Source: Betaproteobacteria bacterium (lineage in GTDB: Bacteria; Pseudomonadota; Gammaproteobacteria; Burkholderiales; SG8-41). From it: 42,007 nucleotides of DNA. Below are positions 5,615 through 33,375 of this stretch, one piece after another; within the stretch, counting starts at the first letter, position 1, and each line of letters opens with the position of its first letter. A program made the translations under genes and the position numbers. The notes under the pieces were generated by a model. The model worked only from the letters and a program-made list of their open reading frames with translations, made no database searches and was not told the DNA's origin. The DNA lies in contig JANXSE010000316.1 of NCBI GenBank assembly GCA_025356695.1, forward strand, positions 1 through 42,007, in the 5' to 3' direction.

Positions 5615-6700
5615 ATGATCGAACGCAAACAACTCGGTATTGCAGTCATCGGCTCGGGCCGCATCGGCACGCTGCGCTCGCGGCTGGCGGCGGAACATCC
5701 GGCGGTCAGATTCATCGCGGTTTCAGACCTCGTTGAGGCCAACGCGCAGAAGCTGGCGAAGGCGGTTGGTGCGAGTGTGGCCTCGACCGACAACCGCGCC
5801 ATCATCGCGCACCCCGAGGTCAACGCGGTGATCGTTTCGACCAGCGAGGGCGAGCATCTCGATGCGGTGCTGGCGGCGATCGAACTCGGCAAGCCGGTGC
5901 TGGTCGAGAAGCCGATCGCGCTGACGACGGCGGACGCCGACCGCATCATCGCCGCGTCGGAGAAGGCCGGCGTCGAAGTGCGCGTTGGCTACAGCCGTCG
6001 TTACAAAGACCGTTATCTGCTGGCGAAAGAACAGATCGTGCAGGGGCGCATCGGCAAGGTGATCGGTGCGGCGATGCGCGTCTACAACTCGCGTTCGCAG
6101 GCGCTGGCGATGCTGGGGCGCAATCCGCATGCCACACCGGTGGTTGATGCACTGACCTATTACGTCGATCTCGCCAACTGGCTGCTCGACACCGGTTCGC
6201 CGGTCGAGGTGTATGCGCGCGGACAGAAGGGCGTGCTGAAAGCCGCCGGCCACGATGTCGATGACGTGAGTTGGGCGATCCTCAGTTATTCAAGCGGCGC
6301 GGTGGTGAATCTCGGTGTCTGTTACGCGCTGCCGGAAAAATATCCATCCCTCGGCCACGCCGCGCGTGTCGAAATCCTTGGTAGTGAAGGCGTGATGATT
6401 CTCGACGACGATCACACCGACCAGATCATGTACAGCGAAAAGGGCGTGCCGCACGTCTACCTGCCCGATCACAACGTCAACATGGTGTTTATGGGCAGCG
6501 GCACGCCGGGCGACTGGGCACTGGGCGATTTCTGGGGCCCGATTGCGAATGAAACGCGCGCCTGGCTCGATCATCTCGCCACCGGCAAGAAATGCGTGCT
6601 GGCGACGCCGCAGGAAGCGCGCGCCAATCTCGAAACGACGCTGGCGATCGAACTGGCGGCGGATACCGGACGGCAGGTCAAGTTGCCGCTGTCGGCGTAA
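5615..6700 (+). CDS. Gfo/Idh/MocA family oxidoreductase (first copy)
   Basis: A 361-residue NAD(P)-dependent dehydrogenase of the Gfo/Idh/MocA family (inositol 2-dehydrogenase-like). The Rossmann motif GSGRIG is at 13-18 and the conserved EKP lysine motif at 98-100. In the catalytic D-x-x-x-H position the sequence reads D178...Y182, so Tyr stands where IolG has His. Tyr is known at this place in glucose-fructose oxidoreductase. The frame extends 30 codons upstream, but the ATG at 5615 has a good ribosome-binding site (GGGAGAG) and gives the normal family start. It is followed after 11 bases by two Bug genes. A closely related paralogue in the same arrangement lies at 23460-24566. Confidence 0.88.
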   Translation: MIERKQLGIAVIGSGRIGTLRSRLAAEHPAVRFIAVSDLVEANAQKLAKAVGASVASTDNRAIIAHPEVNAVIVSTSEGEHLDAVLAAIELGKPVLVEKPIALTTADADRIIAASEKAGVEVRVGYSRRYKDRYLLAKEQIVQGRIGKVIGAAMRVYNSRSQALAMLGRNPHATPVVDALTYYVDLANWLLDTGSPVEVYARGQKGVLKAAGHDVDDVSWAILSYSSGAVVNLGVCYALPEKYPSLGHAARVEILGSEGVMILDDDHTDQIMYSEKGVPHVYLPDHNVNMVFMGSGTPGDWALGDFWGPIANETRAWLDHLATGKKCVLATPQEARANLETTLAIELAADTGRQVKLPLSA

Positions 6701-6711
6701 GCGGAGTACTC

Positions 6712-7686
6712 ATGCGTAAGCATAATGGAATTCTGCCGCTCGCCATTGCATTGGTCGCGTGCATTGCGCCGGTCTTTGCGCAGGACGCCTATCCGACGCG
6801 TTCGATCCGCATGGTGGTCGCTTATCCGCCGGGCGGCGGCACCGACATCGTTGGCCGCATGGTGGCGCAGAAACTGAGCGAAGTCTTCGGGCATACCGTC
6901 GTCGTCGATAACCGCGGTGGTGCCACCGGCAACATCGGCACTGAAATCGTCGCGCGTGCCGCGCCTGACGGCTACACACTGCAGATGGGCAACGTTGCGC
7001 CCAACGCAATCAATGTCAGTCTGTTCGCGAAAATTCCCTATGATCCGGTCAACGATTTCGAGCCGGTGAGCCTCGTCGCGCTGACGCCGAACATCCTGCT
7101 CGTGCATCCGGCACTGCCGGTGAAGAACGTGAAGGAATTCATCGCGCTGGCGAAAGCGAAACCCGGCACGCTGAATTATTCCTCGGCCGGCATCGGCAGT
7201 TCATCGCATCTGGCGCCCGAACTGCTGGCGATGATGACCGGCATCAACATCGTGCACGTGCCGTACAAAGGCGGCGGGCCTGGCCTCGTCGATCTCTTGT
7301 CGGGCCAGATGCAGTTCATGATGACGACGACACCGGCGGCGATGCCGCATGTGAAAACGGGCAAGGTGCGCGCCCTCGGTGTGACCAGCGCCAAACGTTC
7401 GCAGTCGCTGCCGGAACTGCCGACGATTGCCGAAGCCGGCGTCAAGGGTTATGAAGTCTCGACCTGGTACGGCGTGCTGGCGCCGGCGAAGACGCCGAAA
7501 GCCATCGTCACAAAACTGCACGGCGAAATCGTCAAGCTGATCGCGGTGCCCGACACACGCGAGAAGCTGCTGGTGCAGGGTTTCGAACCGGTCGGCAGCA
7601 CGCCGGACGAATTCGGCACCTATATCAAATCCGAAATCGCCAAGTGGGCGAAGGTCATCAAGACCGCCAAAATCAAGGCGGAATAG
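6712..7686 (+). CDS. Bug/TctC tripartite tricarboxylate transporter binding protein
   Basis: A 324-residue periplasmic binding protein of the Bug (TctC, PF03401) family, which captures carboxylates for TctAB-type transporters. A signal peptide covers about residues 1-23 (cleavage near VFA/QDAYP). Family landmarks are the first ligand loop AYPPGGGTDIVGR, DNRGGATGNIG, HVPYKGGGPGLVDLLSGQ and ELPTIAEAG. ATG 6712 follows the oxidoreductase stop by 11 bases with GGAG just upstream; the frame continues further upstream but only inside the previous gene. It is probably cotranscribed with the oxidoreductase and the next Bug gene. The ligand may be the substrate or product of that oxidoreductase. Confidence 0.92.
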   Translation: MRKHNGILPLAIALVACIAPVFAQDAYPTRSIRMVVAYPPGGGTDIVGRMVAQKLSEVFGHTVVVDNRGGATGNIGTEIVARAAPDGYTLQMGNVAPNAINVSLFAKIPYDPVNDFEPVSLVALTPNILLVHPALPVKNVKEFIALAKAKPGTLNYSSAGIGSSSHLAPELLAMMTGINIVHVPYKGGGPGLVDLLSGQMQFMMTTTPAAMPHVKTGKVRALGVTSAKRSQSLPELPTIAEAGVKGYEVSTWYGVLAPAKTPKAIVTKLHGEIVKLIAVPDTREKLLVQGFEPVGSTPDEFGTYIKSEIAKWAKVIKTAKIKAE

Positions 7687-7722
7687 CGCCGCCGGCCGGC
7701 GTCATAATTGAAAGGTGTTTTC

Positions 7723-8706
7723 ATGAAGAGTTTGCGTATAGCGCGCGGTGTTGCGTGTTCGATTTCATTGTTGTCGCTCGCCGGGTTCAATGCGTCTGCA
7801 GCGGACAACTACCCGGACCGCCCGATCCGCCTTGTCATTCCGTTTCCGCCCGGCGGCGGTTCGGACATTACCGGGCGCACCATCGCGCAGAAACTCGGTG
7901 AGGCACTCGGCCAGCAGGTGGTGGCCGACAACCGAGGCGGCGCCGGCGGCAACATTGGCACCGACATCGTCGCCAAGGCGGTGCCGGACGGCTACACACT
8001 GGTGATGGCGCTGTCGGGGCCGTTTTCGATCAACGGCAGCCTGCTCGGCAAACTGCCGTTCGATCCGCTGAAGGACTTTGCCCTGATCACGCTGGCCGGC
8101 GCGACGCCGAATCTGCTGGTGGCGCATCCCTCGTTGCCGGCGCACACGGTGAAGGAACTGATCGCACTGGCGAAAGCGAGCCCGGGGAAAATCAATTTTG
8201 CATCGTCGGGCCTCGGCACGCCGGCGCAGCTTGCGGGGGAACTGTTCAATACCATGGCCGGCGTGAAACTCGTGCATGTGCCGTACAAGGGCGCATCGCC
8301 CGCGCTGACTGATCTGCTCGCCGGTCAGGTGCAGCTGATGTTCTCGACGATGCCGCCGTCGCTGCCGCAGGTGAAAGCCGGCAAGTTGAAGGCGATCGCG
8401 GTGACCAGTGCCAAACGTTCGGTCACCACACCGGAACTGCCGACCATTTCGGAAGCGGGTTTGCCGGGCTTCGAGGCGATCACCTGGTACGGCATGGCGG
8501 CCCCCGCCGGCACGCCGCCCGCGATCGTCAAAAAACTGAACGCCGAAGTGGTCAAACTGCTGCATCTGCCGGATGTCAATGAGCGCCTGTTGGCCACCGG
8601 CACCGAGGCCTCGGGCACGACGCCCGAAGAGTTCGCGACCTATATCAAATCCGAGACGGTAAAGTGGGCAAAGGTGGTCAAGGCGTCCGGCGCGCGCGCC
8701 GATTGA
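7723..8706 (+). CDS. Bug/TctC binding protein
   Basis: A 327-residue Bug-family periplasmic binding protein. The signal peptide ends near residue 26 (NASA/ADNYP). The ligand loop reads PFPPGGGSDITGR, followed by DNRGGAGGNIG, HVPYKGASPALTDLLAGQ and ELPTISEAG. I prefer the ATG at 7723 to the TTG at 7708, since AAAGGTG lies at a proper distance before it. It is 36 bases downstream of the preceding Bug gene and similar to it along its length, so the pair probably arose by tandem duplication. No membrane transporter genes follow. Confidence 0.92.
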   Translation: MKSLRIARGVACSISLLSLAGFNASAADNYPDRPIRLVIPFPPGGGSDITGRTIAQKLGEALGQQVVADNRGGAGGNIGTDIVAKAVPDGYTLVMALSGPFSINGSLLGKLPFDPLKDFALITLAGATPNLLVAHPSLPAHTVKELIALAKASPGKINFASSGLGTPAQLAGELFNTMAGVKLVHVPYKGASPALTDLLAGQVQLMFSTMPPSLPQVKAGKLKAIAVTSAKRSVTTPELPTISEAGLPGFEAITWYGMAAPAGTPPAIVKKLNAEVVKLLHLPDVNERLLATGTEASGTTPEEFATYIKSETVKWAKVVKASGARAD

Positions 8707-8797: not shown

Positions 8798-9403
8798 ATG
8801 ATGGGCAAGTGGTTTGCAGCATTACTGGCTGGCGTTCTTATTTTTGCGGTGAGCACCGCCGGCGCACAAAATCCGATGCGTATTCGCGGCACCATCGCGT
8901 CCATCGATGGCGACGTCGTACTGGTGAAGACGCGCGAAGGCCGCGAGGTCAAAGTATCGGTCGATGAGAAAACCACCTATGCCTATCCGAAGCTGGTGAA
9001 ACTGTCCGACATCAAGGCGGGCACGCCGATGGGCACGACGACGGTGGCCGGCCCCGACGGCAAGCTCATCGCGCGCGAGGTGCATGTATTTCCCGCCGAT
9101 CGTCCGATTCCAAACGAGGGCCATCGCCCGTGGGACCTGGAAGCCAACTCGAACATGACCAATGCCGCGGTGTCGGCCGTGGCCCAGGCCGGGAATGGAC
9201 GTGAACTGACGCTGAGTTACAAAGGCGGCACGCAGACGGTCGTGGTGCCGGAGAACGTTCCGGTGGTTGCGGCGGTTGAAAGCGATCGATCGCTGCTCAA
9301 GGCTGGCGAATACGCCTACATCCAGGCCGGCATGAATAACGACGGCAAGGTGATTGCCTCGCGCTTTCAGGTCAGCAAGGACGGCGTAAAACCGCCGCAG
9401 TAG
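8798..9403 (+). CDS. DUF5666-like exported protein
   Basis: A 201-residue protein with a clear signal peptide (hydrophobic core about 6-22, cleavage near AGA/QNPMR). The mature part starts with a small beta-rich module, RGTIASIDGDVVLVKTREG, like DUF5666 / OB-like domains of unknown function. It has no cysteine and no obvious catalytic motif, and ends in a second repeat-like beta segment (AYIQAGMNNDGKVIASRFQV). It begins 91 bases after a Bug gene and ends 54 bases before the selenoprotein-like TlpA gene in the same direction, so it may lead that operon. A role in binding a metal or other small ligand is only a guess. Start 8798 or 8801 (adjacent ATGs). Confidence 0.72.
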   Translation: MMGKWFAALLAGVLIFAVSTAGAQNPMRIRGTIASIDGDVVLVKTREGREVKVSVDEKTTYAYPKLVKLSDIKAGTPMGTTTVAGPDGKLIAREVHVFPADRPIPNEGHRPWDLEANSNMTNAAVSAVAQAGNGRELTLSYKGGTQTVVVPENVPVVAAVESDRSLLKAGEYAYIQAGMNNDGKVIASRFQVSKDGVKPPQ

Positions 9404-9457
9404 GTTCATTGCCCAGGACGAGCGATGGTGTCTCAATTGAATCAAGCAGGAGGAACG

Positions 9458-10003
9458 ATGAAACTGATGTCATGGGGTGCACGTTTCGTTTCATTGCTGG
9501 CGTTGACGGCCGCAAGTGCCGTCGCCGCCGATCTGCCGCCGCTGCCGCAGGGCCTGACAGCACCGGCCAAGCCGATCAAGATGCAGGCCTTCAACCTGCC
9601 GACCGCGGCGGGCGGCTTCGCCAAATCCGACGACTACAAAGACAAGGTCATCATCGCCCGCTTCTGGGCAACCTGGTGAGACATCTGCGTAGGTGAGATG
9701 CCCTCCGTGCAGAGGGCTCAGCAGGAATACCAGAAAAGCGGCATCCCGGTGATCGCGATTTCGCTCGATGGCGACGGCGCCAAGTCGGTAAAACCGTTTT
9801 TGAGCGAGCACAAGTACACGCTGCCGGTGCCGCTCGATCCCGAGATGCAGTTCGCGCGCTCGCTCGGCGTGCGCGTTACGCCGTGGACGGTGATTATCGA
9901 CCGCGATGGCAATCTCGTCGGCGGCGGTTACGGCCGTATCGATATGCAGAGCGCGGAGTTCCGCAACTACATCAAGGCGCTCTCGGCGAAGAAGCGGGGC
10001 TGA
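9458..10003 (+). CDS. Exported TlpA/thioredoxin-like selenoprotein (U-x-x-C), TGA recoded as Sec
   Basis: Read through one in-frame TGA (9677-9679), this is a 181-residue TlpA/AhpC-TSA-type thioredoxin-fold protein. A signal peptide (about 1-23, SAVA/ADLPP) sends it to the periplasm. The TGA falls at residue 74 inside FWATW-U-DIC, exactly where TlpA proteins have the first Cys of W-C-x-x-C. The second active-site Cys is C77, the only cysteine in the protein. The thioredoxin cis-proline motif VTPW (P142) and the IIDRDGNLVG strand follow in the same frame after the TGA, with no other stop. A strong ribosome-binding site (AGGAGG) precedes ATG 9458. A SECIS-like hairpin begins 17 bases after the TGA. 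Likely role: periplasmic thiol/selenol reductant, perhaps for the peroxiredoxin 42 bases downstream. Automatic annotation would split it into two fragments or call it a pseudogene. Confidence 0.88.
9697..9719 (+). promoter_or_regulatory. Candidate bacterial SECIS element for the TlpA-like selenoprotein
   Basis: Just after the Sec TGA, bases 9700-9705 (GCCCTC) pair perfectly with 9712-9717 (GAGGGC) around a six-base loop CGTGCA (9706-9711). Two more pairs below (9697-9698 with 9718-9719) leave T9699 bulged on the 5' side. There are 26 bases between the TGA and the loop. The loop has G-U at its second and third positions, and the bulged U resembles the E. coli fdhF SECIS bound by SelB. These features fit the published bacterial SECIS pattern (short stem, loop about 16-37 bases from the UGA, G near the loop start). 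Folding energy was not computed. Confidence 0.75.
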
Positions 10004-10045
10004 CCGGTTTTTTTGTAAGTCGCAATTAACCACAACGGGGGGACT

Positions 10046-10603
10046 ATGCAGATGACACGATGGCGGCAGTTGATGACAGGTGTATTGCTGGCGGCATGGG
10101 CGATGGCCGCGTCCGCGGTGAATGTCGGCGACAAGGCGCCGGAATTCGCGGCGCCTTCAAGCACAGGCAAGGAAATCAAGCTCGCGGATTTCACCGGCAA
10201 GAAACACACGGTGCTGTTTTTCTACATCGGCGCATTCACCAACACTTGAACGCAGGAAGCGCTGGCTTTCCAACTGGATCTTCCCCAGTTCGAAGCCGCA
10301 AATGCCCAGGTCCTGGGCATCAGTGTTGACTTCCCCGACGCCAACAAGGCCTGGGGTGAGAAGCTTGGTTTGAAGTATCCGTTGCTCTCCGACCTGCGCC
10401 GGCAGATTTCACGTGCCTACGGCGTGTTGCAGGACGACCCGGCGATGGCGCAGGACCCTGCGCGTATTCCGCAGTATCTGCGCGCGAAGCGTTCGTGGTT
10501 CATCGTCGACAAAAACGGTGTGGTGGTCTATGCGCGGGTTACCGACCCGCGCGGCCTCGTGCCGAACGACGAGATGCTCGAAGTCTTGTCGAAACTCAAG
10601 TAA
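10046..10603 (+). CDS. Exported peroxiredoxin selenoprotein (T-x-x-U), TGA recoded as Sec
   Basis: Read through one TGA (10247-10249), this gives a 185-residue AhpC/TSA (Prx) protein. A signal peptide covers about 1-24 (AASA/VNVGD), so it is periplasmic. The Prx start (VGDKAPEFAAP) is followed by FFYIGAFTNT-U-TQEALAF. The TGA is residue 68, exactly the peroxidatic cysteine of the T-x-x-C motif (T65 conserved). After the TGA the frame continues with VLGISVDFPD, YPLLSD, the Arg-containing KRSWFIVDKNG strand and a normal end at TAA. There is no cysteine anywhere in the protein, so it would be a one-Sec peroxiredoxin that needs an external reductant. The usual Pro four residues before the Thr is replaced (Y-I-G-A-F-T). 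GGGGGGAC precedes ATG 10046; ATG 10052 is an alternative. Same operon as the Sec-TlpA gene. Confidence 0.88.
10264..10297 (+). promoter_or_regulatory. Candidate SECIS element for the peroxiredoxin selenoprotein
   Basis: A stem-loop follows the Sec TGA. The lower stem pairs 10264-10268 with 10293-10297 and C10270 with G10292, leaving T10269 bulged. After a C-C mismatch, AACTGG (10272-10277) pairs with CCAGTT (10285-10290). The loop starts 28 bases after the TGA, inside the accepted range. It lacks a G in its first two bases unless the terminal G-C pair opens, so it is less canonical than the upstream element. A competing smaller hairpin, 10255-10260 with 10265-10271 (loop GCTG), lies only 11 bases from the TGA. 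Which one SelB would use is undecided. Confidence 0.5.
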
Positions 10604-10609
10604 TCCCTG

Positions 10610-10643
10610 CCGCAGTTCCCTCCATTTCAGGAGGGAACTGCGG
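10610..10643 (+). terminator. Hairpin terminator-like structure after the selenoprotein pair
   Basis: Seven bases after the peroxiredoxin stop, a perfect 14-bp inverted repeat (10610-10623 with 10630-10643) encloses a six-base loop ATTTCA. It probably ends the operon transcript or protects its 3' end. There is no clear T-run behind it, so classic rho-independent termination is not certain. Confidence 0.6.
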
Positions 10644-10700
10644 TGGCGGCCCTTCCTGTTTGCTTCGATGCACAATCATTGTGCGGCGCTTCATGCGTAT

Positions 10701-32061: not shown

Positions 32062-33375
32062 ATGAAATTACGCCGCGCATCCGCGCGCGCCGCCGTGCTT
32101 TCGGGCACGGCTGCCGCTGTCGACAAAGAACCCGGGTACGACCGCCGGAAATTTCTGCAGAACAGCCTTGGTGCCGCCGGTGCCTTGGCGGCGGCGGTGG
32201 CGGTACCGGCACGTGCCGCTGATCCGGTCGGCAAAGATTTCCCGGCGTGGTCCACCACGCCGGGTACGCCGATGCGCGCCTACGGCCAGCCGTCGAAGCA
32301 TGAAGACAAAGTGCTGCGCACGCTGACACCGAGCTACGGCGCGACCTCGCCGGGCACCGGCACCTCGCGCACGCCGCTGCAAACGCTCAACGGCGCGATT
32401 ACGCCGAGCGGTCTGCACTTCGAGCGCCATCACAACGGCGTGCCGGAGATCGATCCGGCACAGCACAAGCTGCTGATCCACGGCATGGTGAAAAAGCCGC
32501 TCGTCTTCACAGTGGCAAACCTGCTGCGTTATCCGATGGTGTCGCGCACCTGTTTTGTCGAATGCGCGGGCAACAGTTCGGCCAACACGCTGCCAAAACC
32601 GCCGCAGGCCAATTGTGCCGTGATCCACGGCTTGCTTTCGGGCAGCGAGTGGACCGGCGTTTCGCTCTCGCTGCTGCTGGATGAGGCGGGCGTTGAAGCC
32701 GGCGCGAAATGGTTTCTCGCCGAGGGTGCCGACTCCGCGGCGATGAGCCGCAGCGTGCTGCTCGACAAGGCCTATGACGACGCGATCATCGCGCTCTATC
32801 AAAATGGCGAGCGTATCCGTCCCGAGCAGGGTTACCCGATGCGACTTTTAGTGCCGGGTTATCAAGGCAACATGAACGTCAAATGGCTGCGCCGGCTCGA
32901 AGTTTCCGCCACGCCCATGCACACCAAGGACGAAACCTCGAAATACAGTTTGCTGCTGCGCGACGGTACGGCGCGCCAGTTCGATTTCGAACTCGGTGTG
33001 AAATCGCTGATCACACAGCCTTCGGGCGGCATGAACATGCCGGGTGCGGGGCTGCATGAAATTTCCGGCCTCGCGTGGTCGGGTGCGGGCCGTATTGTCA
33101 AAGCCGAAGTCTCGACCGACGGCGGCGCGAGCTGGCGCGAGGCGGTATTGCAGGGCCCGGTGCTGCCGAAGGCGCTGACGCGGTTCCGTCTGCCGTGGGA
33201 GTGGAGCGGCGCGCCGGCGCTGCTGCAAAGCCGCGCCACCGACGAAAAGGGCAATGTGCAGATGACGCGCGCGGCGTGGAACGCGATCTATTCGCCGTCC
33301 AACCGATACCACAACAACATGATCCAGACCTGGGCGGTCGATGCCAAAGGGAGCGTCAGCAATGTTTACCTCTAA
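32062..33375 (+). CDS. soxC: SoxC-like sulfite dehydrogenase, molybdopterin subunit
   Basis: A 437-residue periplasmic molybdenum-cofactor enzyme of the sulfite oxidase family. A twin-arginine signal (YDRRKFLQN, RR at 28-29) precedes a hydrophobic stretch ending at ARA near residue 52. The cofactor-binding Cys is C168 in FVECAGN. Downstream are the Moco domain (GSEWTGVSLSLLLDEAG, RLLVPGYQGNMNVKWLRRLEV) and a C-terminal dimerisation domain (VSTDGGASW). Length fits SoxC. The SoxD-like cytochrome gene overlaps its end. No soxXYZAB genes are in the window, so thiosulfate oxidation cannot be claimed; sulfite or sulfane-sulfur oxidation is the likely role. Confidence 0.87.
   Translation: MKLRRASARAAVLSGTAAAVDKEPGYDRRKFLQNSLGAAGALAAAVAVPARAADPVGKDFPAWSTTPGTPMRAYGQPSKHEDKVLRTLTPSYGATSPGTGTSRTPLQTLNGAITPSGLHFERHHNGVPEIDPAQHKLLIHGMVKKPLVFTVANLLRYPMVSRTCFVECAGNSSANTLPKPPQANCAVIHGLLSGSEWTGVSLSLLLDEAGVEAGAKWFLAEGADSAAMSRSVLLDKAYDDAIIALYQNGERIRPEQGYPMRLLVPGYQGNMNVKWLRRLEVSATPMHTKDETSKYSLLLRDGTARQFDFELGVKSLITQPSGGMNMPGAGLHEISGLAWSGAGRIVKAEVSTDGGASWREAVLQGPVLPKALTRFRLPWEWSGAPALLQSRATDEKGNVQMTRAAWNAIYSPSNRYHNNMIQTWAVDAKGSVSNVYL

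Follow-up and report, generated by a model that had tools for sequence, protein, structure and literature searches.

A conserved pair of putative selenoprotein genes, TlpA-like and peroxiredoxin-like, in uncultivated Burkholderiales

We analyzed a 42,007-nucleotide stretch of DNA from a Betaproteobacteria bacterium of the order Burkholderiales (contig JANXSE010000316.1, assembly GCA_025356695.1), hereafter the window, in which two adjacent plus-strand genes each carry one internal UGA codon at a redox position. The first (9458..10003) encodes an exported TlpA/ResA-like thioredoxin-fold protein and the second (10046..10603) an exported AhpC/TSA peroxiredoxin (Prx); with UGA read as selenocysteine (Sec), we refer to them as Sec-TlpA and Sec-Prx. 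Together, the two genes probably encode a selenium-based relay dedicated to reducing peroxides in the cell envelope, in which electrons would pass from DsbD to Sec-TlpA, then to Sec-Prx and finally to peroxide. Judged from the sequences, a UGA at the same codon in 26 of 26 related TlpA loci, together with a UGA-containing Prx next door in all 24 loci with room for one, exceeds chance. The initial annotation had described a periplasmic peroxide-reduction relay of two selenoproteins in one operon; its observation is confirmed, and its interpretation is supported in part.

Two adjacent genes with in-frame UGA codons

The two redox open reading frames (ORFs) lie 42 nt apart and are preceded, at a distance of 54 nt, by an ORF at 8798-9403; coordinates and spacings of all three had been given correctly in the initial annotation. 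Sec-TlpA comprises 181 amino acids with the motif W-U74-D-I-C77, and its UGA (9677..9679) occupies the first position of C/UxxC. The ORF matched Pfam AhpC-TSA/Redoxin (E = 1.1e-20), and its best NCBIfam match, ResA-like, was below the cut-off. A hydrophobic signal-like stretch can be read at the N-terminus, followed by the features of the TlpA family: the thioredoxin fold, the W-C/U-x-x-C motif, the cis-Pro position (P142, invariant) and a Glu after the motif (E80, 26 of 27 aligned loci). In all 27 aligned loci, the stretch after the UGA contains a single Cys, located at U+3. The structure model (predicted local distance difference test, pLDDT, 89.9) was nearest to 3kcm and TlpA 1jfu/4txv, which have the TlpA/ResA fold.

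Sec-Prx comprises 185 amino acids, although an alternative start is possible at the second ATG (10052). It contains the motif F-T65-N-T-U68 and no Cys, and its UGA (10247..10249) occupies the peroxidatic position. The Pfam AhpC-TSA/Redoxin match was stronger here (E = 9.9e-36), the best NCBIfam match was thiol peroxidase, below the cut-off, and the N-terminus again shows a hydrophobic signal-like stretch. Domain, fold and the TxxC/U part of the active-site motif are all present, and the structure model (pLDDT 87.9) was nearest to Sulfolobus Bcp4 (3hjp) and to the one-Cys enzyme AhpE, placing the protein with the one-Cys AhpE/Bcp4 type. The lack of a resolving Cys, noted from the window, was borne out in its relatives: past the signal-like stretch, 24 of 25 aligned loci are free of Cys, the exception (L009) having one at U+4. 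In five rows of the alignment a Cys occurs between U-66 and U-52 and is assigned to the signal peptide.

Our search with TlpA returned 27 genome loci, from which we left out of the counts a remote Ralstonia TlpA with Cys (L027); the remaining 26 loci (L001-L026) come from 25 source genomes, since L005 and L007 share one assembly. The UGA was found at the same codon in 26 of 26 related TlpA loci (27 of 27 aligned) and in 25 of 25 aligned Prx loci. Within one Burkholderiales family of 74 genomes (that of genome G004), one inner TGA was present in 41 of 41 TlpA copies and 43 of 43 Prx copies; the UxxC or TxxU motif itself was read in a subset of the fetched loci, and in G794 by pattern at the contig start.

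Each UGA is followed by a hairpin resembling a Sec insertion sequence (SECIS), the loops starting 26 nt (TlpA) and 28 nt (Prx) downstream. The TlpA hairpin (9699..9718; UGCCCUC-CGUGCA-GAGGGCU) spans 20 nt, has 6 pairs in the window and 7 in most relatives, and is almost invariant. All 27 loci use AGG for the Arg in this hairpin, while across the rest of the two genes AGG makes up 18 of the 448 Arg codons counted. The Prx hairpin (10264..10297) has a covarying stem of 12 pairs, with 95.5% of cells paired and three pairs changed on both sides; its covariation score was reached by none of 500 shuffles, which leave relatedness in. Its loop lacks a G unless the closing pair opens. Compared with synonymous-codon nulls, the TlpA hairpin had a mean z of -3.04 (p<0.05 in 10 of 10 distinct sequences) and the Prx hairpin a mean z of -2.08 (p<0.05 in 14 of 19), while control stretches gave -0.03 and -0.05; the sequences tested are related and hence not independent. 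An Rfam scan of the window gave no family at its score threshold. The machinery for Sec is found in the source genomes of the relatives: 23 of the 25 have a tRNA-Sec scoring 74-80 bits, and 24 have SelB above its cut-off. Taken together, both genes look like true selenoproteins on these sequence grounds, and the earlier claim of two exported proteins with TGA at the catalytic position holds.

As had also been anticipated, public gene calls break both genes. Of the 75 TlpA relatives listed from the protein database, most measure about 100 amino acids, and all 24 that were aligned begin at a Met seven residues past the UGA; P0185 is the complementary half, ending at the W that precedes the UGA. 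CxxC is found in remote full-length TlpA relatives, for example P0194 (33% identical). Among the best 120 of 1290 Prx relatives, sequences fall into those truncated after the UGA and those of full length, and most of the latter that were read show W at the Sec site (many among P0005-P0041), probably from gene calls made with UGA as Trp. Cys occupies the U68 position in four relatives (P0026, P0031, P0032 and P0034), and also in P0035, which looks chimeric.

Conservation of the pair

The adjacency of the two genes in other genomes, which the initial annotation had named as a check on its operon, was upheld. Starting from TlpA, a Sec-Prx was next door in 24 of 24 loci with room; L010 and L019 had no such room, as their sequence stops within 200 bases. 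Starting from Prx, we searched 399 genomes of the order, of which 182 had some match at 1e-20. The operon Prx was carried by 15 of the 399 (E < 1e-76, one TGA each), the next matches lying at 1e-29; nine of these genomes overlapped with the TlpA set and six were new. All 14 loci that had room for it carried a Sec-TlpA upstream of this Prx, and L036 begins at a contig end.

In the 74-genome family, Prx was present in 42 genomes (43 copies) and TlpA in 40 (41 copies); these counts exclude three Prx matches near 1e-36 and four TlpA matches that lack a TGA and have E-values of 1e-31 to 1e-34. As many as 40 of the 41 TlpA copies lie directly upstream of Prx; in the exception, G018, TlpA and Prx are both at contig ends, and in the genomes with Prx only (G789 and G794) Prx is at a contig end. 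No Cys form of the operon TlpA occurred among the 41 family copies. Half of the Prx genomes of the family (21 of 42) were new relative to the TlpA set. The pair is not limited to this family, because loci L008, L011, L012 and L032 come from genomes outside the 74. Phylum-wide, a Prx at 1e-35 was found in one of 398 genomes, G004 itself. The distribution of the pair is thus narrow among the genomes searched, and its source organisms are uncultivated environmental bacteria. TlpA and Prx distances correlate with r = 0.90 over 25 loci, a value that still includes shared species history. A scan of viral contigs gave 17 pattern matches, none confirmed, and the 381 records from a plasmid search were all below 60% identity.

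In genome G005 the pair occurs twice, once on each of two contigs (L005 and L007); for L005, window positions 9516-10603 are the sole match among the listed matches, filtered at 150 bases. Grouping of loci by their flanks was unclean, with 23 of 27 falling in one group, probably due to repeated TctC-type genes.

An independent instance of pairing was found in three genomes of the same family that lack the main pair (G803, G809 and G812; loci L122-L124), the source of the three Prx matches near 1e-36. These encode a different Sec-Prx, 39-42% identical, with the motif F-T-P-T-U, a signal-like start and a 7-bp hairpin after the UGA. In all three loci fetched, this gene is followed by an export-type TlpA with CxxC, so the gene order is reversed relative to the main pair. 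The recurrence of a Sec-Prx/Cys-TlpA pair in reversed order supports a functional link between TlpA and Prx. A further Sec-Prx type, with the motif FAFTGGU, was found in genomes of the same bacterial order at L120, L121, L125, L126 and L127; the two sequences read, L120 and L125, begin without a signal-like stretch; no TlpA was seen beside it at the five loci, of which L121 has only about 190 bases upstream. Control Prx loci (L046-L060) likewise gave no TlpA match in 15 loci, with about 1.5 kb on each side. In this sample, TlpA pairing goes with the export-type Sec-Prx.

A possible selenium relay and its alternatives

A Prx with a single Sec needs an outside reductant, which makes the adjacent UxxC protein the obvious candidate. 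In the proposed relay, U68 of Sec-Prx would attack peroxide to give a selenenic acid. Since this Prx lacks a resolving Cys, U74 of Sec-TlpA would then attack the oxidized Prx, forming a mixed Prx-Se-Se-TlpA intermediate that C77 of TlpA would resolve, and a DsbD-type membrane transporter would re-reduce the resulting TlpA selenenylsulfide. We infer which way the electrons flow, that a diselenide intermediate forms, that DsbD is the donor and that peroxide is the substrate. What the sequences offer as a basis are the UGA codons at redox positions, the hairpins, export-type N-termini, the missing resolving Cys, the adjacency, and the donor family and Sec machinery of the relatives. A more specific version, an all-selenium periplasmic relay working through an intermolecular diselenide between two selenoproteins, encoded as a fixed two-gene unit without Cys substitution in one family, has in our estimate slightly less than an even chance of being right.

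A membrane donor of the DsbD/CcdA/ScsB type, which the initial annotation suggested looking for, has a candidate in the DsbD_TM family, which 24 of the 25 source genomes contain above cut-off, 21 of them as an open frame of at least 590 amino acids. Of the 74 family genomes, 67 have SelB at E <= 1e-60, among them 39 of the 42 that carry Prx; the Sec machinery is therefore wider than the pair.

Several findings weigh against the proposed relay. The Pro of PxxxTxxC/U is replaced in 25 of 25 operon Prx sequences (Ile in 22, Val in 2, Thr in 1; window codon 10226-10228), whereas the three aligned Cys forms (P0026, P0032 and P0034) retain it. Peroxidase activity is for this reason not certain, and "peroxiredoxin-fold, works like a Prx" is a safer label than "typical Prx". 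The TlpA neighbor at L122-L124 is a Cys protein, which shows that TlpA does not strictly require Sec. As for the hairpins, 5 of the 19 distinct Prx sequences fail p<0.05 against the null (L025 has z = 0.22), and 106 of 500 shuffles reach as many covarying Prx pairs as were observed; the TlpA hairpin, hardly varying, lacks covariation. Sec machinery and donor are known from the genomes of the relatives, not from the window's own genome. DsbD_TM is common, occurring also in 10 of 14 control genomes, and its presence therefore argues little for the relay. Finally, the support for the relay is computational, drawn from sequence comparison and structure models.

Among the alternatives, the two selenoproteins might be co-expressed and act in parallel, TlpA as a general envelope thiol reductase in cytochrome c maturation or oxidase assembly, like ResA, CcmG and Bradyrhizobium TlpA, and Prx being reduced by something other than TlpA. 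The ResA/TlpA-type structures nearest to the TlpA model, which include complexes of TlpA with ScoI and with cytochrome oxidase subunit II, fit this role, as does the Glu conserved after UxxC. We nevertheless consider this reading unlikely: TlpA adjoins Prx, the pairing recurs in reversed order, and none of the 10 neighboring ORFs scanned (10 representatives, some possibly unreal genes) was a cytochrome-maturation or oxidase gene. Electrons might instead flow the other way, with Prx sensing peroxide and oxidizing TlpA, which would hand the oxidation on to envelope proteins as a disulfide or signaling system. A one-Sec Prx with a UxxC neighbor would fit this as well, but TlpA/ResA relatives are known as reductants and DsbD_TM accompanies the pair in 24 of 25 source genomes, leaving such a reverse relay very improbable.

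Two further readings concern the UGA codons themselves, and we give both a negligible probability. Broken public gene calls would suit sequencing errors or pseudogene stops, yet the inner TGA is fixed across the TlpA and Prx copies of the family, with the same motif where read, and protein and hairpins are conserved past it; the pseudogene reading was ruled out on this basis. Some database proteins print W at the site, as a genome with UGA read as an ordinary amino acid would, and we take these to be gene calls with UGA as Trp. UGA is the ordinary stop codon of 10 of 27 TlpA genes, so it is not reassigned everywhere; genome-wide recoding was thereby ruled out, and tRNA-Sec and SelB in the relatives also speak against it. 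The selenium-based relay remains the reading that we prefer.

Flanking features and comparison with known systems

The plus-strand gene upstream of the pair (8798..9403) encodes an exported protein of unknown function, described in the initial annotation as DUF5666-like. Its position and export-type sequence stand; its DUF5666 match is sub-threshold (E = 0.017, 15.8 bits against a cut-off of 27), and it lies outside the conserved unit. In the four nearest relatives (L001-L004) the interval from TctC to TlpA does not contain it, and L001-L026 gave no match to it at the threshold used; it was rejected as a third partner on these grounds. The protein also weakly resembles ExtJ of a selenite/tellurite operon (21 bits against a cut-off of 52.5). 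Downstream of the Prx stop, the perfect 14-bp inverted repeat (plus strand, 10612..10645), reported as a terminator hairpin, is present and may mark a transcript end; the region 10604-10660 has a folding z of -6.2. It is followed by no T-run, the terminator scan does not list it, and the same search found no perfect stem at that place in the closest relative (L001). A strict intrinsic terminator was rejected, there being no T-tract. Elsewhere in the window, two TctC-type solute-binding proteins precede the pair (6592-8706), similar stretches recurring along the window and in relatives, and 32062-33375 encodes a molybdopterin-binding oxidoreductase with a Mo-co dimerisation domain.

The operon Prx shares fold and one-Cys type with mycobacterial AhpE, a Cys enzyme. 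AhpE is cytosolic and is reduced by mycoredoxin. Known Sec-containing Prx proteins (TxxU; PF00578) share the AhpC-TSA domain and TxxU with the operon Prx, which differs in its export-type N-terminus, its lack of a resolving Cys and its replaced Pro of PxxxTxxU. Excerpts of a review of the prokaryotic selenoproteome (PMC13188914) list Sec-Prx (TxxU), UxxC Prx-like proteins and selenoprotein operons, and note pairs of Prx with SELENOW-like and of Prx-like with AhpD-like proteins. The Prx-like thiol:disulfide oxidoreductases with UxxC, covered in excerpts of that review and of the GOS survey (PMC2398784), share PF00578 with UxxC with Sec-TlpA; the operon TlpA subfamily is distinct in being tied to one Prx neighbor and in having Cys in 0 of 41 family copies. 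Excerpts of PMC2398784 report one Prx/Prx-like 2 read, and more generally a Sec-Prx beside another selenoprotein, once Prx-like; those cases involve other families and single reads, whereas here a fixed two-gene unit occurs in many genomes. Excerpts of the Sargasso survey (PMC1088965) list both the Prx and the Prx-like families. In the open-licence literature searched, including the excerpts of these papers, we found no description of a TlpA-Prx selenoprotein pair. A 2006 survey, in the part covered here (PMC1794560), reported formate dehydrogenase as the only selenoprotein in Betaproteobacteria, compared with several in one lineage here.

If the relay is real, it would be a natural two-protein system outside the cytoplasm in which peroxidase and reductant are both selenium-based. 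It would make testable whether diselenide exchange between proteins occurs and why bacteria keep Sec over Cys, for which the reversed Sec-Prx/Cys-TlpA pair of L122-L124 offers a natural comparison.

The closest known system is the Cys-based envelope peroxide pathway of Caulobacter, ScsB to TlpA to PprX (Cho et al. 2012, as presented in excerpts of the review PMC5403849). There, a membrane transporter passes electrons through an exported TlpA to an exported Prx, as is proposed here. The present pair differs in that both active sites are Sec and that the candidate transporter is of DsbD_TM type, with ScsB and DsbD not distinguished. A partnership of the two proteins is suggested by gene adjacency, and both have export-type N-termini. 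A periplasmic TlpA-Prx relay is itself already known; the new part is that both partners are selenoproteins. By analogy, the best reading of the pair is a selenium version of the Caulobacter ScsB-TlpA-PprX pathway.
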